Shown here piece after piece: positions 38,393-45,351 of a DNA stretch of 64,000 nucleotides. The stretch is taken from the NCBI RefSeq assembly GCF_030732865.1, contig NZ_JASHKB010000011.1, positions 1-64,000 on the forward strand. The letters run 5' to 3'. A model generated the notes under the pieces. It had not been told where the DNA came from. It saw nothing but the letters and a program-made list of their open reading frames with translations, and did no database searches. A program made the position numbers and the translations under genes. The stretch comes from Roseitalea sp. MMSF_3546 (GTDB taxonomy: Bacteria; Pseudomonadota; Alphaproteobacteria; Rhizobiales; Rhizobiaceae). Position 1 is the first letter of the stretch. Each line of letters starts with the position of its first letter.

Positions 38393-39325
38393 GTGAAAGA
38401 CCTGAACTGGGATGACGTGCGCATCTTCCTGCGTGTGGCGCAGGGCGGCGGATTGTCGGCGGCCGCCGCCACCACCGGCCTGAGCCCGGCAACGGTCGGC
38501 CGCCGCGTGACCGCGCTCGAGCAGTGCATCGGCCGGTCGCTCTTCGTGCGCTCGCAGACCGGCTACGCCCTGACCTCCGACGGCCGCGCCCTGATGGAAA
38601 AGGCCCTGGCCATGGACGCCAGCATGCGGCCGATCGCCGATTGGTCGCGCACATCGAGCCAGAGGCCCGGCGTGCGCGTTTCGGCCGGCACCTGGACGGC
38701 CAGTTTCCTGGCCGCCAACATCCATGCGCTCTGGCGGCCCGGGGACGATTTCCACCTGTGCTTCAAGACCACCGAAGCCCGTCTCGACCTGGCCCACCGC
38801 GAGGCCGAGATCGGTCTGCGCAATGCCATGCCCGAAAGCGGCAATCTGGCCGGGCGCAAGCTCGCCGACGTCGCTTTCGCCCCCTATCGCGCCCGCCACC
38901 TGCCCGCCGACGAACCGCTCGACTGGGTGGCGGTCGGCCGCGACGAGGCGCTGACGTCATCGGCCCGCTGGGTGCTCGACCAGCCGGACATGCGCGTCGT
39001 CGTGTGGTCGAACACGCTCAGGACGCTGCGCGACCTGATCCGCGCCGGGGCCGGGCAGGGCGTTCTGCCCTGCATGGCCGGAGACCGCGACCCGCAGCTC
39101 GTGCGTGCCGGCCCGGTGATCGCCGAAATGGACCAGGCGCAGTACATCGTCGCCCATGCCGACGATCGCCACCGGCCCGAGGTGCGCACCGTGATCCGCC
39201 GGATCACCGCGCTGGTCGAGGCCAATGCCGCGCTCTATCGCGGCGAGCGGCCCTTCGCGCCGGCGGCATCGGCCGAGCCGGCGGCGTCCGCACCAATGCC
39301 CGCTACACGAAATCGAACGCGCTGA
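38393..39325 (+). CDS. LysR-family transcriptional regulator
   Basis: DNA-binding regulator of 310 residues. The HTH domain (about 3-62) has LNWDDVRIFLRVAQGGGLS and LSPATVGRRVTALEQCIGR. The ligand domain covers about 90-285. The C-terminus (about 285-310) is Ala/Pro-rich. I choose GTG 38393, which follows AAAGGAG at 10 nt and begins MKDLNWDD; the frame stays open to an ATG at 38303, but that adds 30 Cys/Arg-rich residues unlike the family. It converges on the following gene with a 23-bp overlap of coding sequence. Confidence 0.88.
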   Translation: MKDLNWDDVRIFLRVAQGGGLSAAAATTGLSPATVGRRVTALEQCIGRSLFVRSQTGYALTSDGRALMEKALAMDASMRPIADWSRTSSQRPGVRVSAGTWTASFLAANIHALWRPGDDFHLCFKTTEARLDLAHREAEIGLRNAMPESGNLAGRKLADVAFAPYRARHLPADEPLDWVAVGRDEALTSSARWVLDQPDMRVVVWSNTLRTLRDLIRAGAGQGVLPCMAGDRDPQLVRAGPVIAEMDQAQYIVAHADDRHRPEVRTVIRRITALVEANAALYRGERPFAPAASAEPAASAPMPATRNRTR

Positions 39326-40739
39326 GCCCGGTTGTCATGTCGTCGAGTCCGAGCGGCCTCGTGATCGGCGGTTCGGCCCGCGCCAGGCAGCCGGCGCGTT
39401 CGCACACCCGGCAGGCCGGCCCCACCGGCAGGGTGTGCACGCGGCCCTCGGCACCGGCCAGCGGACGCAGCATCGTGCCATAGACGATGTCGTTGCGATG
39501 GGCGATTTCGCAGCCCAGCAGGATCGCCGTGCGGCGCGGCCGTTCGTGGAAGGCCCCTTGCGGGCCTTCCAGCGTGCGCGCGATGACCAGGAATTCGACG
39601 CCGTCGGGCATCTGCACGGCCTCGACCAGAATGTGCCCGGGCGTCGAGAACGCCTCGTGCACGGGCAGCTTGGGGCACGAGCCGCCGAACCGCGCCTGCG
39701 GGTAGCCGCGCGCGCCGGCCCGCCGGAAACGGTTACCGGCCTGGTCGATCTCGGCCATGAAGAACGGCACGCCTGCCGCCCCGCGCCGCTGCAGCATGGT
39801 CAGCCGGTTCGCCGCCTGCTCGAAGGAGACGCCGAAACGCGACTTGAGCACGTCGATGTCGTAGCGCTCGCGCATGGCGACTTCGAGGAAGCGCGCATAG
39901 GGCATGATCAGCGCATGCGCCGCATAGCGCGCCATCTCGAACCGCGCGATGCGCCGGGCTTCGTTCGATGAAAGCGCCAGGTCCTCGATCTCGGCGGTGA
40001 TCGCCACCTGCATGCGGATGAGCGCCGCCTCCATGGCGACCTCGCGCAGCTGGTCGAACGGCGACAGGCGCTCGGAGATGAACAGCCGGTTCGAGTGCCG
40101 GTCATAGCGCCGGCGCCAGTTCGGCATGGCCTGCACGGGAAGCACCTTGACCGAAATGCCGTGGTCGGCGCGCAGCCAGTCCTTGAGCGCACCGGACAGA
40201 TCGTCGCCCGGCGACAACAGCTTGATGAAGCTCTCGGCCTCCTCCTCGAGTCGGGCGAAATGGTTGGGGCGCTTTTCCAGCGTGTCGCGCACCTCGTCGG
40301 CCGGCAGGCGCGCGGCGGCAAGGCGCGTCTCGTGCCCCTCGCGCGCCAGCATGTCGGAAAGGTCGCTCAGCCGCTGCTGCCCCTCGCGATAGGCCCGGTA
40401 GAGCTTGACGAGCGCGCTCGAGACGTTCGGCGCGCCCTCGGTGATCTCGACCAGTTCCTGGTCGCCCGGCAGTTCGCCGGCGAGCAGCGGGTCGGCGAAC
40501 ATCTCCTTGAGCTGCGGCAAAAGCGATTCGCCCGCGCCCTGCAATTCGTTCACATCGACCTTGTAGACCGAAGCGAGCTTCAGGAGCAGCTGCACGGTCA
40601 AAGGTCTTTGGTTGCGCTCGATCAGGTTGAGATAGCTGGGCGAAATGCCCAGATCGGCGGCCATCGCCGTCTGGGTGAGCCCGCGCTGGGTGCGGATTCG
40701 CCGGATGCGCGCTCCGGCGAAGATCTTCTGGTCGGCCAT
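39303..40739 (-). CDS. Short-chain acyl-CoA regulator (XRE + ImmA/IrrE-like)
   Basis: Transcription factor of 478 residues of the ScfR/RamB/PccR group. It has an XRE HTH (about 8-65: RIRRIRTQRGLTQTAMAADL, PSYLNLIERNQRPLT), an IrrE-like domain without the HExxH protease motif (about 190-310), and a C-terminal DUF2083 part with Cys residues (GPACRVCERAGCLAR). Relatives sense acyl-CoAs and control glyoxylate-shunt or propionyl-CoA genes. No such target gene is adjacent. Three CTTT(G)ACA units lie 45-70 nt upstream of its start. Confidence 0.88.
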   Translation of the reverse strand: MADQKIFAGARIRRIRTQRGLTQTAMAADLGISPSYLNLIERNQRPLTVQLLLKLASVYKVDVNELQGAGESLLPQLKEMFADPLLAGELPGDQELVEITEGAPNVSSALVKLYRAYREGQQRLSDLSDMLAREGHETRLAAARLPADEVRDTLEKRPNHFARLEEEAESFIKLLSPGDDLSGALKDWLRADHGISVKVLPVQAMPNWRRRYDRHSNRLFISERLSPFDQLREVAMEAALIRMQVAITAEIEDLALSSNEARRIARFEMARYAAHALIMPYARFLEVAMRERYDIDVLKSRFGVSFEQAANRLTMLQRRGAAGVPFFMAEIDQAGNRFRRAGARGYPQARFGGSCPKLPVHEAFSTPGHILVEAVQMPDGVEFLVIARTLEGPQGAFHERPRRTAILLGCEIAHRNDIVYGTMLRPLAGAEGRVHTLPVGPACRVCERAGCLARAEPPITRPLGLDDMTTGLSAFDFV

Positions 40740-41091
40740 GGCGGCGCCCTTCCCGTGTGCGGTCAGTAAACACGAAATCGGGGCTTTGACAATCTTTACA
40801 GCTTTACATAAGCGCGAGGTCACAGCGTCGACCAGGCCACGTGAATCTGGCGCTGCACTGCAAAAAATCGCGTGCTTTCAGGCAAATGCGGGATATATGT
40901 CGGTTTCGGTCGTGACCTGTATGGACGTTGTCAATCCGGGCCGGATATCGGACGCCAGCCGATGTTGACAGCACTGCAGGACGAGCGCGGTGAGCGTCCG
41001 GGGCAGGGCATGACCGAAAGGGGCGGTGGACTTTGCGCGGCCGTCCCGTCCATAAAGGCCGAAACCAGACATCGCCACGGAGCACGAGCAC
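40740..41091. other. 352-bp intergenic region with tandem CTTTACA
   Basis: No gene is supported here. Near the regulator start, CTTTGACA (40784-40791), CTTTACA (40794-40800) and CTTTACA (40802-40808) form an irregular direct repeat, read as TGTAAAG units on the minus strand. This could be the regulator's own operator. The rest is G/C-rich; I see no convincing promoter or RNA structure. Confidence 0.35.
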
Positions 41092-41340
41092 ATGTCGAGC
41101 CACGAACGTCCCAAGACCCATGTCAAGGAGCGCGCCGAAGAGCAGTCCTCGACCATGGGCGCCGACCAGCAGGCGGCGATCCGCATGCTGGCCAACGACC
41201 TGCATCGCCTGAACCAGTCGGTGATGAAGGCGGTGGAGGCAGGCGTGTCGGTGGAACTGGTCCGCTCGGCCCGCCATCACGGCGGCGATGGCAACTGGGG
41301 CGATCTGCTCATCCCGGTGATTGTCACGCGCGAGAGCTGA
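41092..41340 (+). CDS. Small hypothetical protein
   Basis: Protein of 82 residues that I cannot assign. It is hydrophilic at the start (SSHERPKTHVKERAEEQSS), then predicted helical (GADQQAAIRMLANDLHRLN, QSVMKAVEAGVSVELVRSA), then HHGGDGNWGDLLIPVIVTRES. No signal peptide or membrane segment. ATG 41092 has a GGAG 9-10 nt upstream. It lies 167 bp ahead of the GerW gene on the same strand and might be in the same transcript. Confidence 0.6.
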   Translation: MSSHERPKTHVKERAEEQSSTMGADQQAAIRMLANDLHRLNQSVMKAVEAGVSVELVRSARHHGGDGNWGDLLIPVIVTRES

Positions 41341-41423
41341 AGGCGACCGCGACCCTCCGGCGCCGCCATTCCTGGCCTTCGTGCCGCCGGCACATGGCGG
41401 GGCCAAGCGGCCGAGATGCATGC

Positions 41424-41438
41424 GACCTGATTCAGGTC
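41424..41438. promoter_or_regulatory. Perfect 15-bp dyad GACCTGATTCAGGTC
   Basis: GACCTGA and TCAGGTC arms flank a single central T, 69 nt upstream of the GerW start. With flanking bases the reverse strand reads TTGACCTGAATCAGGTC. It could be an operator for an unidentified dimeric regulator of the GerW cluster. Confidence 0.4.
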
Positions 41439-41469
41439 AATGCGTGAGCCATCGGCATGTGCGCTTTGT

Positions 41470-41497
41470 CATCGGGTGGTCTTCGTTTCACCCGATG
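41470..41497 (+). promoter_or_regulatory. Hairpin abutting the GerW ribosome binding site
   Basis: CATCGGGTG (41470-41478) pairs perfectly with CACCCGATG (41489-41497) around a 10-nt loop. The 3' arm ends inside the Shine-Dalgarno GGAG (41497-41500) of the gene starting at 41508. The fold could modulate ribosome access. Confidence 0.4.
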
Positions 41498-41507
41498 GAG
41501 AAAACCC

Positions 41508-41870
41508 ATGGACGACGTAGAACGACTGCTCAAGAACACGGTCGAGGAACTCGACCGGCTCCTCAGCGCCAAGAACGTCCTGGGCGCACCGATCGAAAAG
41601 GACGGCGCGACGATCATCCCGATGGTCAGCTATGGTTTCGCCTTCGGTGCCGGCGGCGGCAGTGACCAGAAGGCCGGCCAGGGCGGCGGCTCGGGTGGCG
41701 GCGGCGGCATCAAGCCGATCGGCGCGATCGTCTTCGACAAGGACGGTGCCCGCGTCGAGGCGGTGCATGGCGCGACCCGCAGCCTTGTCGAGGCGCTCGG
41801 CGATGTCGCCTCGCGCGCCATGGATCGCGCCGGCGGCAAGGACAAGGACACCGCGTCCGACACGGACTAG
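41508..41870 (+). CDS. GerW/YtfJ-family protein
   Basis: Protein of 120 residues in the GerW (sporulation protein YtfJ) family. The core has LLKNTVEELDRLLSAKNVLG, GATIIPMVSYGFAFGAGGG, a Gly-rich loop (about 47-67) and GIKPIGAIVFDKDGARVEAV. In Bacillus, YtfJ affects spore germination; this organism is not expected to sporulate, and the role outside Firmicutes is unknown. ATG 41508 has GGAG at 7 nt. The DUF2953 gene that follows is the same partner family found beside ytfJ in Bacillus (ytfI). Confidence 0.85.
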   Translation: MDDVERLLKNTVEELDRLLSAKNVLGAPIEKDGATIIPMVSYGFAFGAGGGSDQKAGQGGGSGGGGGIKPIGAIVFDKDGARVEAVHGATRSLVEALGDVASRAMDRAGGKDKDTASDTD

Positions 41871-42220
41871 GGTCCGCTGAGCAACATCGCGCGGGCTTCG
41901 TCGCAGCCAACTTCGCCGGTCTGGAAGCAAGGACGACAGACATGCAGCGCGCCTTCAGGGAGGAGCGAAGCCGACCGGGCGGATTTCGGACGCCAAGGCA
42001 GCCTCGCGCGCTGACACTCGAAAGCCCCTTAAGAGCGTCAGCCACGGAAGAGCGTCCCGTGACGAGATTAAACCATCGTGCCGGAGCAGGTTCGGATCAA
42101 CGCCAAGGGCTCTGGCGAAGGGCGGATCTGGATCCGTCCGGGCCGAAGACTGCCGGATTTGACCCGGAACGTCCCGGCGCGATGGTCCATTCTCGTCACG
42201 GCACGTTCTGAGCCGGCACG
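41871..42220. other. 350-bp gap between GerW and DUF2953 genes
   Basis: The gap holds no gene I can support. Its right half (42057-42201) is a long inverted repeat, annotated separately. The left half shows no promoter or small ORF that I trust. The gap is unusual because the two flanking genes are expected to work together. Confidence 0.4.
42057..42201. repeat. Long imperfect inverted repeat
   Basis: The 28-nt arms at 42057-42084 and 42174-42201 match at 23 positions, including an unbroken 11-bp outer block (CCGTGACGAGA with TCTCGTCACGG), CCATCG/CGATGG and GCCGG/CCGGC. Similarity continues weakly inward, so most of the 145 nt could fold as one hairpin. It resembles non-autonomous intergenic repeats of rhizobia, but I cannot name the family. 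Confidence 0.55.
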
Positions 42221-42805
42221 ATGGCCGCGATCCTGTGGACCATCGTGTGGGCCGTGATCGTGATCGTGGTTCTGGTGCTGGCGGTCCTCGCCGCGCCGGT
42301 GCGCCTCGCGCTGGCAGCGCAGACCGCGCCGCCACGGATCAGCGTCCGGCTGGGCCTGCTCGGCGATCTGGTGCCGCGCATTACCGTGCACGACACGGCG
42401 CGACGGCGTCCGAAGAGGCCACCCAGGAAGCCAGAGCCCGAGCCGGAGCCGCAGACCGGCGGCAAGCCGAAGCCGAGGCGACGCCGCAAGCGCCGGGCAC
42501 CGCGCGTCATCGCACTGCGCCCGCGTCATCTCGTCGATCTCGTCCGCCCGATCCAGGTCCGGCGGCTCGAGGTCGAGGCCGATCTCGGCCTTGGCGATCC
42601 GGCGCTCACCGGCCAGCTTTTCGCGCTGGTCTACGCGCTGAGCAGCGTCCTGGCGGGCCGCCTGCCCGGTTCGATCGCCATCCGCCCCGATTTCACCGCC
42701 GCGCGCGCATCGGGTGCGCTGTTCGCCGAAATCGGCTTCGTGCCGCTGACCTTCGTGCCACCGGGCCTGCGCCTTGTGTGGATCCTGTTCGGGCCTCGGC
42801 GATGA
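42221..42805 (+). CDS. DUF2953 membrane-anchored protein
   Basis: Protein of 194 residues. One N-terminal membrane helix (AAILWTIVWAVIVIVVLVLAVLAAPVR, about 2-28) is followed by a beta-rich start (ISVRLGLLGDLVPRITVH), a Lys/Arg/Pro-rich linker (about 62-95), and the DUF2953 part (PIQVRRLEVEADLGLGDPALT, IRPDF). DUF2953 proteins such as YtfI of Bacillus are encoded next to GerW/YtfJ. Function unknown. Its stop overlaps the next start as ATGA. Confidence 0.75.
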   Translation: MAAILWTIVWAVIVIVVLVLAVLAAPVRLALAAQTAPPRISVRLGLLGDLVPRITVHDTARRRPKRPPRKPEPEPEPQTGGKPKPRRRRKRRAPRVIALRPRHLVDLVRPIQVRRLEVEADLGLGDPALTGQLFALVYALSSVLAGRLPGSIAIRPDFTAARASGALFAEIGFVPLTFVPPGLRLVWILFGPRR

Positions 42806-43059
42806 CGGCGGCGCTCGATCCTGTGGTGACCATCGGCGCAGCGCGCATTGCCGCTATCGTCGAGCGCAGCATCGGCAGCCAGCGCGCCGGCGGCGTGTTC
42901 GCCTGGGGCGCCAAGCGACCGCTGGCGATCCTGATCCGCCACAACGGTGTCACGACCGCCTTCGACACCGATGGCAAGCCGATCGCGCTGGCCGATGTCG
43001 ACCGCCGGTTTGCCGGGCTGCGGGCACGGTTCGAGCGCCTGGCCGAGGGCATGCCGTGA
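42802..43059 (+). CDS. Small hypothetical protein coupled to DUF2953
   Basis: Protein of 85 residues that I do not recognise. Pattern: VVTIGAARIAAIVERSIGSQ, then AGGVFAWGAKRPLAILIRHN, then predicted helix RFAGLRARFERLAEGMP. ATG 42802 overlaps the DUF2953 stop and its own stop overlaps the next start (GTGA), so three genes are translationally coupled. No signal peptide. The beta-strand-rich first half is reminiscent of small GerW-like folds, but this is a guess. Confidence 0.65.
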   Translation: MTAALDPVVTIGAARIAAIVERSIGSQRAGGVFAWGAKRPLAILIRHNGVTTAFDTDGKPIALADVDRRFAGLRARFERLAEGMP

Positions 43060-43532
43060 ACCGGCGCCCATTGTCTGACCGCGCCCCCGTGCGCCGCGCC
43101 GCGCCTGTCGACGAGGCGGCGGTCGCCGCCATCGCCCGGCAGGCCTACGCCCCCTTCGTCGCCGCCATTGGCCGCAAGCCCGCGCCGATGCTCGCCGATT
43201 TCGCCGCGCAGATCGAGGCCGGGCACGTCCATGTCGCCGAAGCAGACGACGGTTCGGTCGCCGGCTTCGTGGTGGCCTTTGCGCGCGGCGACCATCTCTT
43301 CATCGAGAACATCGCGGTCCGGCCCGCGGCCCAGGGCACCGGACTTGGCGGCCGGTTGATGCGGTTTTGCGAAACGCTGGCGCGGCGGCAGGGCCTTGCC
43401 GCCATCGAACTTTACACCAATGCGGCGATGACCGCCAATCTTGCGCTTTATCCGCATCTTGGCTTCGTTCGGACCGGCCGGCGCACCGAAGACGGCTTCG
43501 ACCGGGTTTATTTCCGCAAGGTGCTCGACTGA
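43056..43532 (+). CDS. GNAT-family N-acetyltransferase
   Basis: Acyl-CoA-dependent acetyltransferase of 158 residues, substrate unknown. Motif A is IENIAVRPAAQGTGLGGRLM (the Q/R-x-x-G-x-G/A loop that holds acetyl-CoA), and motif B is IELYTNAAMTANLALYPHLGF. GTG 43056 overlaps the preceding stop as GTGA. It closes the GerW-DUF2953 cluster. Confidence 0.88.
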   Translation: MNRRPLSDRAPVRRAAPVDEAAVAAIARQAYAPFVAAIGRKPAPMLADFAAQIEAGHVHVAEADDGSVAGFVVAFARGDHLFIENIAVRPAAQGTGLGGRLMRFCETLARRQGLAAIELYTNAAMTANLALYPHLGFVRTGRRTEDGFDRVYFRKVLD

Positions 43533-43584
43533 CGGCCCGCCGGGCCTCTTTCCTTCACGGAGCGGTTGTGCCATCCCGCGCGCC

Positions 43585-45351
43585 ATGACCGGCGACCAGA
43601 TCTTCCTTTTCTCGCTCTTCGGTGCCCTGTTCGCCTTCCTGGTCTGGGGGCGGGTGCGCTACGATCTGGTCGCCTTCACCGCGCTGCTGATCGCGGTCTT
43701 CGCCGGCCATGTCGAACCGGACGCCGCGTTCGCCGGCTTCGGCCATCCGGCCGTCGTCATCATCGCGCTTGTGCTGATCGTCAGCCGCGGCCTTGTCAAT
43801 TCGGGCGCCGTCGAACTGATCGCGCAGTTCGTGGTCAAGCCCGACCGCGCGCTGCCGGTGCACATTTCCATCATGTCGGTCGCCGGCGCGGCGCTTTCGG
43901 CGGTGATCAACAATGTCGCCGCGCTGGCGCTGCTGATGTCGCTGGACATGGATGTCGCGGCCAAGGCCAAGCGCGCCGTCTCGCTGAGCCTGATGCCGCT
44001 GTCCTTCGCCACCATTCTGGGCGGCATGATCACGCTGATCGGCACGCCGCCCAACATCGTCATCGCCCAGTATCGCGCCGACGCGCTGGGCGCGCCGTTT
44101 TCCATGTTCGATTTCGCGCCGGTCGGCCTGGTCGTCGCCAGCATCGGCATCGCCTATGTCGCGCTGATCGGCTGGCGGCTGATCCCGGCGCGCGAGCAGC
44201 GCGCCTCCATCGAGGGCGATGCCGGCCTTTACGTGGCCGAGGCGCGCGTCAAGGAGGGCTCGAGATCGATCGGCGCGATGGTGCGCGATCTCTACCCCGA
44301 CGCGGCCGACAAGGACATCCAGATCCTGGGCCTGGTGCGGCGCGGCAAGCGCCTTCCGGGCTTTTCGCGCACCCAGGAGTTGCGCAAGGGCGACTTTCTC
44401 GTGCTGGAGGGCGATCCGAAATCCATCGAATCCTTCATGGGCGCCGCCGAACTCGACTTCTCGGGCTCGGAAAAGCATGGCGGCCTGCGCGGCGCCAATC
44501 TGACGCTGATCGAGGCGATCGTCCCTGACGGCGCCCGCATCGTCGGGCGCACCGCCATGGATGTGCGCCTGCTGTACCGCCATGGCGTGACGCTGCTGGG
44601 CGTGTCGCGTCGGGGCAAGCGCTTCCGCGACCGGGTGCGCAAGCTGACGATTGAGCCCGGCGACGTTTTGCTCCTGCTGGGCCCGGACGACCGGATGGAG
44701 CAGACCGCCCACTGGCTCGGCGTCTATCCGCTCGCCGACCGCAAGACATCGGTCATCCAACGCCGCAAGGCGGCCGCCGCCATCGCCGCCTTTGCCGGCG
44801 CGATCGCGCTTGCCGTCATGGGCGTGACCAGCCTGGCGATCGCGCTGGGCGCCTGCGTGGTCGCCTATGTCGCGCTCGGCCTTCTAGGCGGCGAGGATTT
44901 CTATTCGCTCATCGAATGGAAGGTGATCGTGCTGCTGGCTTCGCTCATCCCCCTGTCGGCCGCGCTCGAGGCTTCCGGCGGCACCGAACTGATCGCCAAC
45001 CTGATCGTCGCCAACGGCGATGGCTGGCCGGCCTGGGTGATCCTGCTGGTGCTGATGGTCGTCACCATGACGATGAGCGACTTTCTCAACAATGTCGCCA
45101 CCGCCCTGATCGCCGCGCCGATCGGCGTATCGGTGGCGGGTTCCATCGGCGCCAGCCCCGATCCGTTCCTGATGGGCGTGGCGGTCGCCGCCTCCTGCGC
45201 CTTCCTGACGCCGATCGGCCACAAGAACAACACCATCATCATGGGCCCGGGCGGCTACCAGTTCGGCGATTACTGGCGCATGGGCCTGCTGCTCGAGGTG
45301 ATCGTCATCGCTGTCGCCGTGCCGACCATCCTGTGGGTCTGGCCGCTGTGA
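43585..45351 (+). CDS. SLC13-family permease with two TrkA-C domains
   Basis: Inner-membrane transporter of 588 residues in the divalent anion:sodium symporter superfamily. Helices cover about 1-200 and 390-588, with the signature NNVAALALLM and TLIGTPPNIVIA in the first half and FLNNVATALIAAP and FLTPIGHKNNTIIMGPG in the second. Two TrkA-C (RCK_C) domains lie between them (about 205-285 and 295-380). Related proteins move sulfate, citrate or dicarboxylates, or are called sulfur-deprivation proteins; the substrate is unresolved. ATG 43585. Confidence 0.9.
   Translation: MTGDQIFLFSLFGALFAFLVWGRVRYDLVAFTALLIAVFAGHVEPDAAFAGFGHPAVVIIALVLIVSRGLVNSGAVELIAQFVVKPDRALPVHISIMSVAGAALSAVINNVAALALLMSLDMDVAAKAKRAVSLSLMPLSFATILGGMITLIGTPPNIVIAQYRADALGAPFSMFDFAPVGLVVASIGIAYVALIGWRLIPAREQRASIEGDAGLYVAEARVKEGSRSIGAMVRDLYPDAADKDIQILGLVRRGKRLPGFSRTQELRKGDFLVLEGDPKSIESFMGAAELDFSGSEKHGGLRGANLTLIEAIVPDGARIVGRTAMDVRLLYRHGVTLLGVSRRGKRFRDRVRKLTIEPGDVLLLLGPDDRMEQTAHWLGVYPLADRKTSVIQRRKAAAAIAAFAGAIALAVMGVTSLAIALGACVVAYVALGLLGGEDFYSLIEWKVIVLLASLIPLSAALEASGGTELIANLIVANGDGWPAWVILLVLMVVTMTMSDFLNNVATALIAAPIGVSVAGSIGASPDPFLMGVAVAASCAFLTPIGHKNNTIIMGPGGYQFGDYWRMGLLLEVIVIAVAVPTILWVWPL

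Follow-up and report, generated by a model that had tools for sequence, protein, structure and literature searches.

gerW, DUF2953 and a small third gene form a conserved unit with an FNR-type upstream box in Roseitalea and related loci

The gene unit at the Roseitalea locus

A 64,000-nucleotide stretch of the Roseitalea sp. MMSF_3546 genome (contig NZ_JASHKB010000011.1, positions 1 to 64,000; hereafter the window) carries a homologue of the Bacillus gene gerW (ytfJ), followed on the same strand by genes for a DUF2953 protein of the YtfI family, an 85-residue protein and a GNAT acetyltransferase. In Bacillus, ytfI and ytfJ are likewise neighbours. A first-pass annotation had described four plus-strand genes here with ATGA and GTGA overlaps, and genes and overlaps alike are located as it claimed: ATGA joins the DUF2953 gene to that of the 85-residue protein, and GTGA joins the latter to the GNAT gene. 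What is reported below of gene order, overlap, the spacing of box and -10 element in relatives, the membrane segment, the sporadic and plasmid-borne distribution and the profile similarity between the small protein and GerW was obtained by computation. The features of the locus are these.

41427-41440, plus strand: FNR/Dnr/FixK-type box CTGATTCAGGTCAA, 81 nt 5' of the gerW start codon, with one mismatch to TTGA-N6-TCAA
41508-41870, plus strand: gerW/ytfJ homologue, 120 amino acids (aa), with a glycine-rich loop; PF09579 at 55.1 bits (residues 31-102)
41871-42220, no strand: spacer of 350 nt with dispersed repeat pieces, recognised by genome matches, and a 36-nt inverted repeat (42049-42084 / 42174-42209)
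42221-42805, plus strand: DUF2953 protein (YtfI family), 194 aa, with an N-terminal membrane segment and a probably cytosolic C-terminal domain; PF11167 at 25.9 bits
42802-43059, plus strand: 85-aa protein, third member of the unit, with a probable reduced GerW-like domain; ATGA overlap with the DUF2953 gene
43056-43532, plus strand: GNAT acetyltransferase, translationally coupled in the window and outside the conserved unit; PF00583 at 60.1 bits

Related loci were gathered from named genomes, scanned with an alignment of three GerW sequences, and were picked by two N-terminal GerW patterns; the resulting 59 loci represent one clade. They belong mostly to Rhodobacterales, with one locus each labelled Hyphomicrobiales, Bauldia, Henriciella, Hyphomonas, Deltaproteobacteria, Gammaproteobacteria and Chloroflexi; for three the label is Alphaproteobacteria alone. 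A DUF2953 gene lies 3' of gerW in all 58 loci that have downstream DNA (L069 stops inside gerW, and L057 stops inside DUF2953). The gene for the small protein, which the first-pass annotation had already linked to the group, occurs in 56 of the 57 loci long enough to include it; in the exception, L067, whose contig was refetched as L123, a fuller profile finds a weak copy (E 2.7e-4). The four-base ATGA overlap between the DUF2953 gene and the small gene recurs in 54 of 57 measured pairs. Start codons for the spacing and overlap counts were those nearest to the profile start, and these counts (57 pairs, 56 spacers) include a contig that appears under two names, L010 and L062. The unit profiles derive partly from the same loci (51 DUF2953 sequences and 31 of the small protein, the window included), with leave-one-out checks on nine loci. 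Searches with the whole families returned 17 regions, of which 10 were already among the known loci and seven were new; DUF2953 occurs in all seven, one of them ended by its contig, and the small gene in all six that have enough DNA. Thus gerW, DUF2953 and the small-protein gene are one conserved unit.

The window departs from its relatives in the spacing of the first two genes, which is 350 nt as against -4 to +33 nt in 55 of the 56 relatives measured; the remaining relative is interrupted by a transposase gene. Pieces of the window spacer match nine further places in its own genome, one of them being the stretch's own inverted repeat. An Rfam scan of window positions 40700-43700 gave nothing at the gathering score. 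In a roseobacter metagenome-assembled genome (MAG; L061:5369-7129) the middle member has been broken naturally, a gene for a DDE transposase splitting DUF2953.

The GNAT gene, proposed in the first-pass annotation as a fourth partner, was rejected as a member of the unit, since tblastn at E 1e-4 matched it in none of the 59 related loci, whose lengths run up to about 10 kb. Seventeen marker proteins drawn from a pair of annotated plasmid loci were compared with the same loci by tblastn, and the most frequent neighbour was ppsA, found in 12 of 59; in nine loci it is directly divergent from the unit, within about 212 nt. The tblastn count is the one used here because gene clustering was rough, and the 17-locus ppsA cluster that it produced may include frames antisense to gerW. 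Among the matches listed for the openly licensed PMC literature there was no paper on the unit in alphaproteobacteria.

The upstream box and its regulator

Within 250 nt 5' of gerW, 35 of 61 loci have the exact sequence TTGA-N6-TCAA, where shuffles of single bases yield 0.095 on average. With up to one mismatch, a box stands at -95 to -55 before gerW in 50 of the 61, compared with 0.8 in shuffles of two-base blocks and with 3 to 9 loci for four other stretches. When the 49 loci chosen for having the box were aligned on it, 32 of them showed the dinucleotide TA at offset 35 or 36, and at most five showed it at any other offset tested; since the loci had been selected by the box, the TA is the sole independent result of this alignment. 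With this spacing from box to TA, the centre of the box falls near -41.5 relative to the transcription start. FNR promoters with this geometry are termed class II, and their -10 element is expected about 29 nt past the box centre, where TA lies in 32 of 49 relatives and not in the window. Published FNR sites follow TTGAT-N4-ATCAA and are almost optimal when placed 39.5 and 41.5 bp upstream of the start (PMC5398030). The promoters of the FnrL/Dnr regulon of Dinoroseobacter shibae have the same box consensus, and the box-to-TA spacing of the relatives fits a class II FNR promoter; GerW, YtfJ and DUF2953 are not named in the accessible portion of that paper, where words beginning 'spor' number zero (PMC5398030). 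Envelope stress, which the first-pass annotation had suggested as a phenotype, finds no support; low oxygen is the condition that the box indicates.

Several observations weigh against control of the unit by such a box. Upstream of other predicted genes in these loci the exact sequence is found too, in 30 of 385 cases; the gene calls behind this comparison are rough, and some of the stretches compared may coincide with the gerW region. In 11 of the 61 loci no box comes within one mismatch: L024, L030, L032, L033, L037, L042, L052 and L068 have at least three mismatches, L038 and L046 have two, and L036 is masked. In L025 the box is out of place, at -55. The window's own box agrees with the TTGA-N6-TCAA core at all but one base, and no TA was seen at the expected -10 place when the window was read by eye. 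Among the seven new loci, two have a box with up to one mismatch, three have two mismatches at -74 to -79 and two have none. In addition, many of the loci are related, so their counts are not independent. Finally, nosZ is not enriched in genomes with gerW (5 of 15, against 49 of 179 others; p 0.76), from which it follows that the unit does not simply track complete denitrification, and a link to that pathway was rejected.

The box could instead serve another regulator of the CRP/FNR family, such as the nitric oxide (NO) sensor Dnr/NnrR, in which case the unit would answer nitrosative stress or denitrification intermediates and not oxygen itself. In its favour, the half-site varies at its fifth base (T in 19, C in 18 and G in 12 of 49 loci), and a Dnr site is described as indistinguishable from an Anr box (PMC5398030). 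Against this stand the nosZ counts given above and the gene content of the window's own genome, which encodes a protein that, by its Cys cluster and the ETVSR sequence of its recognition helix, looks to be an FnrL-like regulator. Two other PF00325 matches are present in the genome, and by eye one looks CRP/FNR-like and one does not. A role for an NO sensor in place of an oxygen sensor seems unlikely, though not negligibly so.

Distribution and mobility

Across 241 alphaproteobacterial genomes GerW was found in five and DUF2953 in three, and in all three gerW lies beside DUF2953; the two GerW genomes that lack DUF2953 are of one family and have a different GerW type. In 397 genomes of Pseudomonadota each protein was found in seven and both in six, always adjacent (6/6; Fisher p 9e-12). 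The co-occurrence of the two genes outside Firmicutes, on which the first-pass annotation had staked its reading, is thus real. The seventh DUF2953 match, in G354 (21.9 bits, or 22.2 with its neighbours), is an unrelated-looking frame with no convincing GerW alongside, and was taken as chance. Both families are present in the controls, Bacillus subtilis and Methanosarcina acetivorans.

On a finer scale the distribution is patchy. Within the window's own genus gerW occurs in one of five genomes, and the congener G605 is without GerW. In the family of G131 the GerW alignment matches 16 of 194 genomes, of which 15 were kept; the match in G853 (E 8.9e-4, inside a 474-aa frame) was set aside. Plasmids in Leisingera caerulea, Leisingera aquaemixtae and Sulfitobacter carry all three genes in full; judged by the profiles, the Sulfitobacter annotation makes DUF2953 too short, and that of L. 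aquaemixtae does the same to the small gene.

The plasmid settings differ. On the Leisingera plasmids (L080:306-16324) the unit sits among ppsA and genes for a hexose kinase, a Na/Pi symporter, cytochrome c, acsA and pdhA, and acsA- and pdhA-like genes adjoin it in L009 too. On the Sulfitobacter SK012 plasmid (L081:6086-16351), where the annotated start of DUF2953 is too far downstream, it lies near genes for a universal stress protein, a formate/nitrite transporter and an F-type ATPase operon. Beside ppsA on a Leisingera methylohalidivorans plasmid (L083:5989-6653) the unit survives without its middle: gerW keeps its 5' part, DUF2953 its 3' part and the small gene most of its length.

In the window the unit and the GNAT gene occupy a variable slot between two genes that the congener G605 also keeps.

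41092-41340, plus strand: SMc00767-family repressor, one edge of the slot; NF050174 at 130.6 bits (cut-off 95); 98.8% protein identity in G605
43585-45351, plus strand: CitMHS/DASS-type transporter with TrkA_C domains, the other edge; PF03600 at 244.6 bits; 88.8% protein identity in G605

In G605 the slot (L113:6535-8923) is filled by PD-Lambda-2 B and C defence genes in place of the gerW unit and the GNAT gene. A tree built from GerW plus DUF2953 joins the window to a Henriciella MAG with support of 96/93, from a bootstrap that had yet to settle; this partner belongs to another order than Rhizobiaceae, the window's likely host family. The sporadic spread, the plasmid copies, the slot with other genes in a congener and the tree together fit horizontal transfer of the unit. 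Further upstream, at 39303-40745, a regulator of the ScfR type, with helix-turn-helix (HTH), IrrE-like peptidase and short-chain acyl-CoA regulator domains, adjoins the SMc00767 acetate-metabolism repressor, and the congener has both.

These data bear on two other accounts of the locus. The first, that of the first-pass annotation, is an ancient envelope-linked function of four proteins, GNAT included. In its favour, DUF2953 is a membrane protein, and both families are present in B. subtilis and in M. acetivorans; the unit, however, is rare and sporadic in Pseudomonadota (1 of 5 genomes in the genus, 15 of 194 in the family of G131), is plasmid-borne in two genera, has an FNR-type box, and is accompanied by GNAT in none of the 59 loci. 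We consider this account very improbable. The second account makes the unit cargo of a defence or mobile-element slot that acts against phages or plasmids. It draws on the PD-Lambda-2 genes in the corresponding slot of G605, the sporadic distribution and the plasmid copies, but PADLOC models match none of the four window proteins (E 0.01), no GerW relative was confirmed in viral contigs, and the commonest of the neighbours tried is ppsA. An antiviral or antiplasmid role we find hardly credible.

The three proteins and a possible function

GerW of the window passes the Pfam family PF09579 with 55.1 bits (gathering score 25) and falls short of the NCBIfam spore equivalog TIGR02874 (49.2 bits, cut-off 116.3), which by that rule makes it a relative within the family and not the Bacillus orthologue. 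Its AlphaFold2 model is poor (pLDDT 65.7), with strands at residues 23-25, 29-31, 34-43, 67-77 and 80-85 followed by a helix. A sequence search of the Protein Data Bank (PDB) gave a single weak match, for residues 24-70 (E 0.0073), and the best VIA hit of the fold search (Z 4.3; rmsd, root mean square deviation, 2.8; 47 aligned) is not clear of the remaining matches. A second, divergent GerW type, found in two alphaproteobacteria of one family (G041 and G146; L011:6021-6413 and L012:6015-6392), likewise passes the PF09579 cut-off; it differs from the window GerW in coming from genomes with no DUF2953 match and in its identity, 27 and 36%. A plasmid search for this type found none at E 0.01.

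The first-pass annotation had started from an effect of YtfJ on spore germination, a premise now out of date. Fibrobacter, one genus in which the name persists, is not known to make spores. A Fibrobacter study lists 'sporulation protein YtfJ' (PMC5442110), and a Moorella spore study still lists GerW as a germination protein (PMC8745062), as do annotations in roseobacters. A 2015 study looked for a part in germination in two Bacillus species and found none, its authors leaving the function open (PMC4366231). The same source gives Bacillus gerW as forespore-specific and expressed from a sigma-F promoter (PMC4366231). The GerW/YtfJ of spore formers (PF09579, TIGR02874; Bacillales) shares its Pfam family with the window protein; the two differ in what stands upstream, a sigma-F promoter in Bacillus (PMC4366231) as opposed to an FNR-type box here, and in the third gene, which is found here.

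The DUF2953 assignment, for which a profile check had been proposed, holds: the window protein scores 25.9 bits against PF11167 (gathering score 22), and the doubt that a score near the cut-off invites is answered by the 52 of 56 aligned relatives that match the family (E 0.01). The predicted membrane link holds as well, a strong hydrophobic segment standing near the N-terminus in all 56 relatives. Mean charge is about zero before this segment and basic residues are many after it, so that by the positive-inside rule the conserved domain probably faces the cytosol. A weaker, second hydrophobic stretch lies further along in 16 of the 56, so a single pass is not sure. Invariant positions G123, D126, P127, T130 and G131 form a G-x2-DP-x2-TG motif; a PDB sequence search with DUF2953 gave no match. 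In Bacillus cereus a DUF2953-like protein has been listed with the uncharacterised proteins of the spore inner membrane (PMC8624511). The protein concerned, YtfI/DUF2953 (Q817B6), has its domain and its membrane location in common with the window protein (PMC8624511). Unlike Q817B6, DUF2953 occurs here in bacteria not known as spore makers, and its gene is ATGA-coupled to that of a small GerW-like protein.

The small 85-residue protein has no Pfam family, its best match being DUF7158 at 19.7 bits, below the cut-off of 27. A confident AlphaFold2 model (57 relatives; pLDDT 95.5) has strands at residues 3-5, 9-11, 14-28, 32-47 and 50-54 and two helices, and its strand order agrees with that of the GerW model, which has an extra N-terminal helix and a glycine-rich loop inside the hairpin. 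Alignment of the two families by hhalign gave a score of 26.2 (E 4e-4), in register across 64 columns, with 18.7 as the best of 400 column shuffles and 12.2 for reversals. Moreover, a small-protein profile made without L070 finds the GerW of L070 itself (E 5e-4). Fold searches gave a best Foldseek E of 0.15 and a best VIA Z of 5.2 (rmsd 3.4, 63 aligned), not clear of the rest; because the best matches of neither protein are distinct from the others, no known fold can be named, or dismissed, for either.

Kinship of the small protein with GerW, as a reduced GerW-like domain, is likely, if not settled. That the two are unrelated, and that the likeness is one of chance among small beta proteins, is a somewhat doubtful alternative that has points of its own. 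The hhalign probability is 33%, PF09579 matches none of the 57 small-protein members at E 0.1, and the GerW model used in the comparison is of low confidence (pLDDT 65.7), all of which count against kinship, and HMMER cross-matches are weak (best 0.0046, with one weak match in the reverse direction). Chance sits poorly with the margin of the hhalign score over shuffles and reversals, with the recovery of L070's GerW by a profile that lacked that locus, and with the shared strand order.

Of the first-pass reading, the co-occurrence, the DUF2953 identity, the membrane segment and the 85-residue protein are supported, while GNAT as a partner, the 'ancient' function, envelope stress and the germination premise are not. 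The best explanation is a mobile, low-oxygen-induced, membrane-tethered three-gene operon. As regards the operon and its control we think this reasonably probable; the formation of a complex and its physiological role are a good deal less assured. We infer the identity of the regulator, the cytosolic face, complex formation and the role from the features described. In most relatives an FNR/Dnr/FixK-type regulator would turn the operon on as oxygen drops or nitric oxide climbs, with a promoter whose geometry would be that of a class II FNR promoter. DUF2953 would be the inner-membrane anchor, its domain turned towards the cytosol, and GerW and the small protein would be partners, most likely assembling on that anchor; translational coupling would ensure that DUF2953 and the small protein are made in step. 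The complex would probably protect or hold the membrane or cytosol of oxygen-depleted cells, whose resting state may be likened to that of the Bacillus forespore. The comparison suggests as common thread a cell that is without oxygen or at rest.

More tentatively, GerW/DUF2953 may not be a spore system, and may be a module for anoxic or resting cells, which in alphaproteobacteria takes the form of an FNR-switched, transferable, membrane-tethered complex of DUF2953 with two GerW-type subunits and which endospore formers recruited into the forespore; we regard this as possible rather than probable. The label 'spore germination protein' in roseobacters is misleading. The three-gene version outside spore formers provides the GerW family with low oxygen as a candidate condition, with candidate partners in DUF2953 and the small GerW-like protein, and with hosts that do not sporulate. 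If the proposal is true, GerW would become approachable via an anoxia phenotype in a non-sporulating laboratory bacterium.

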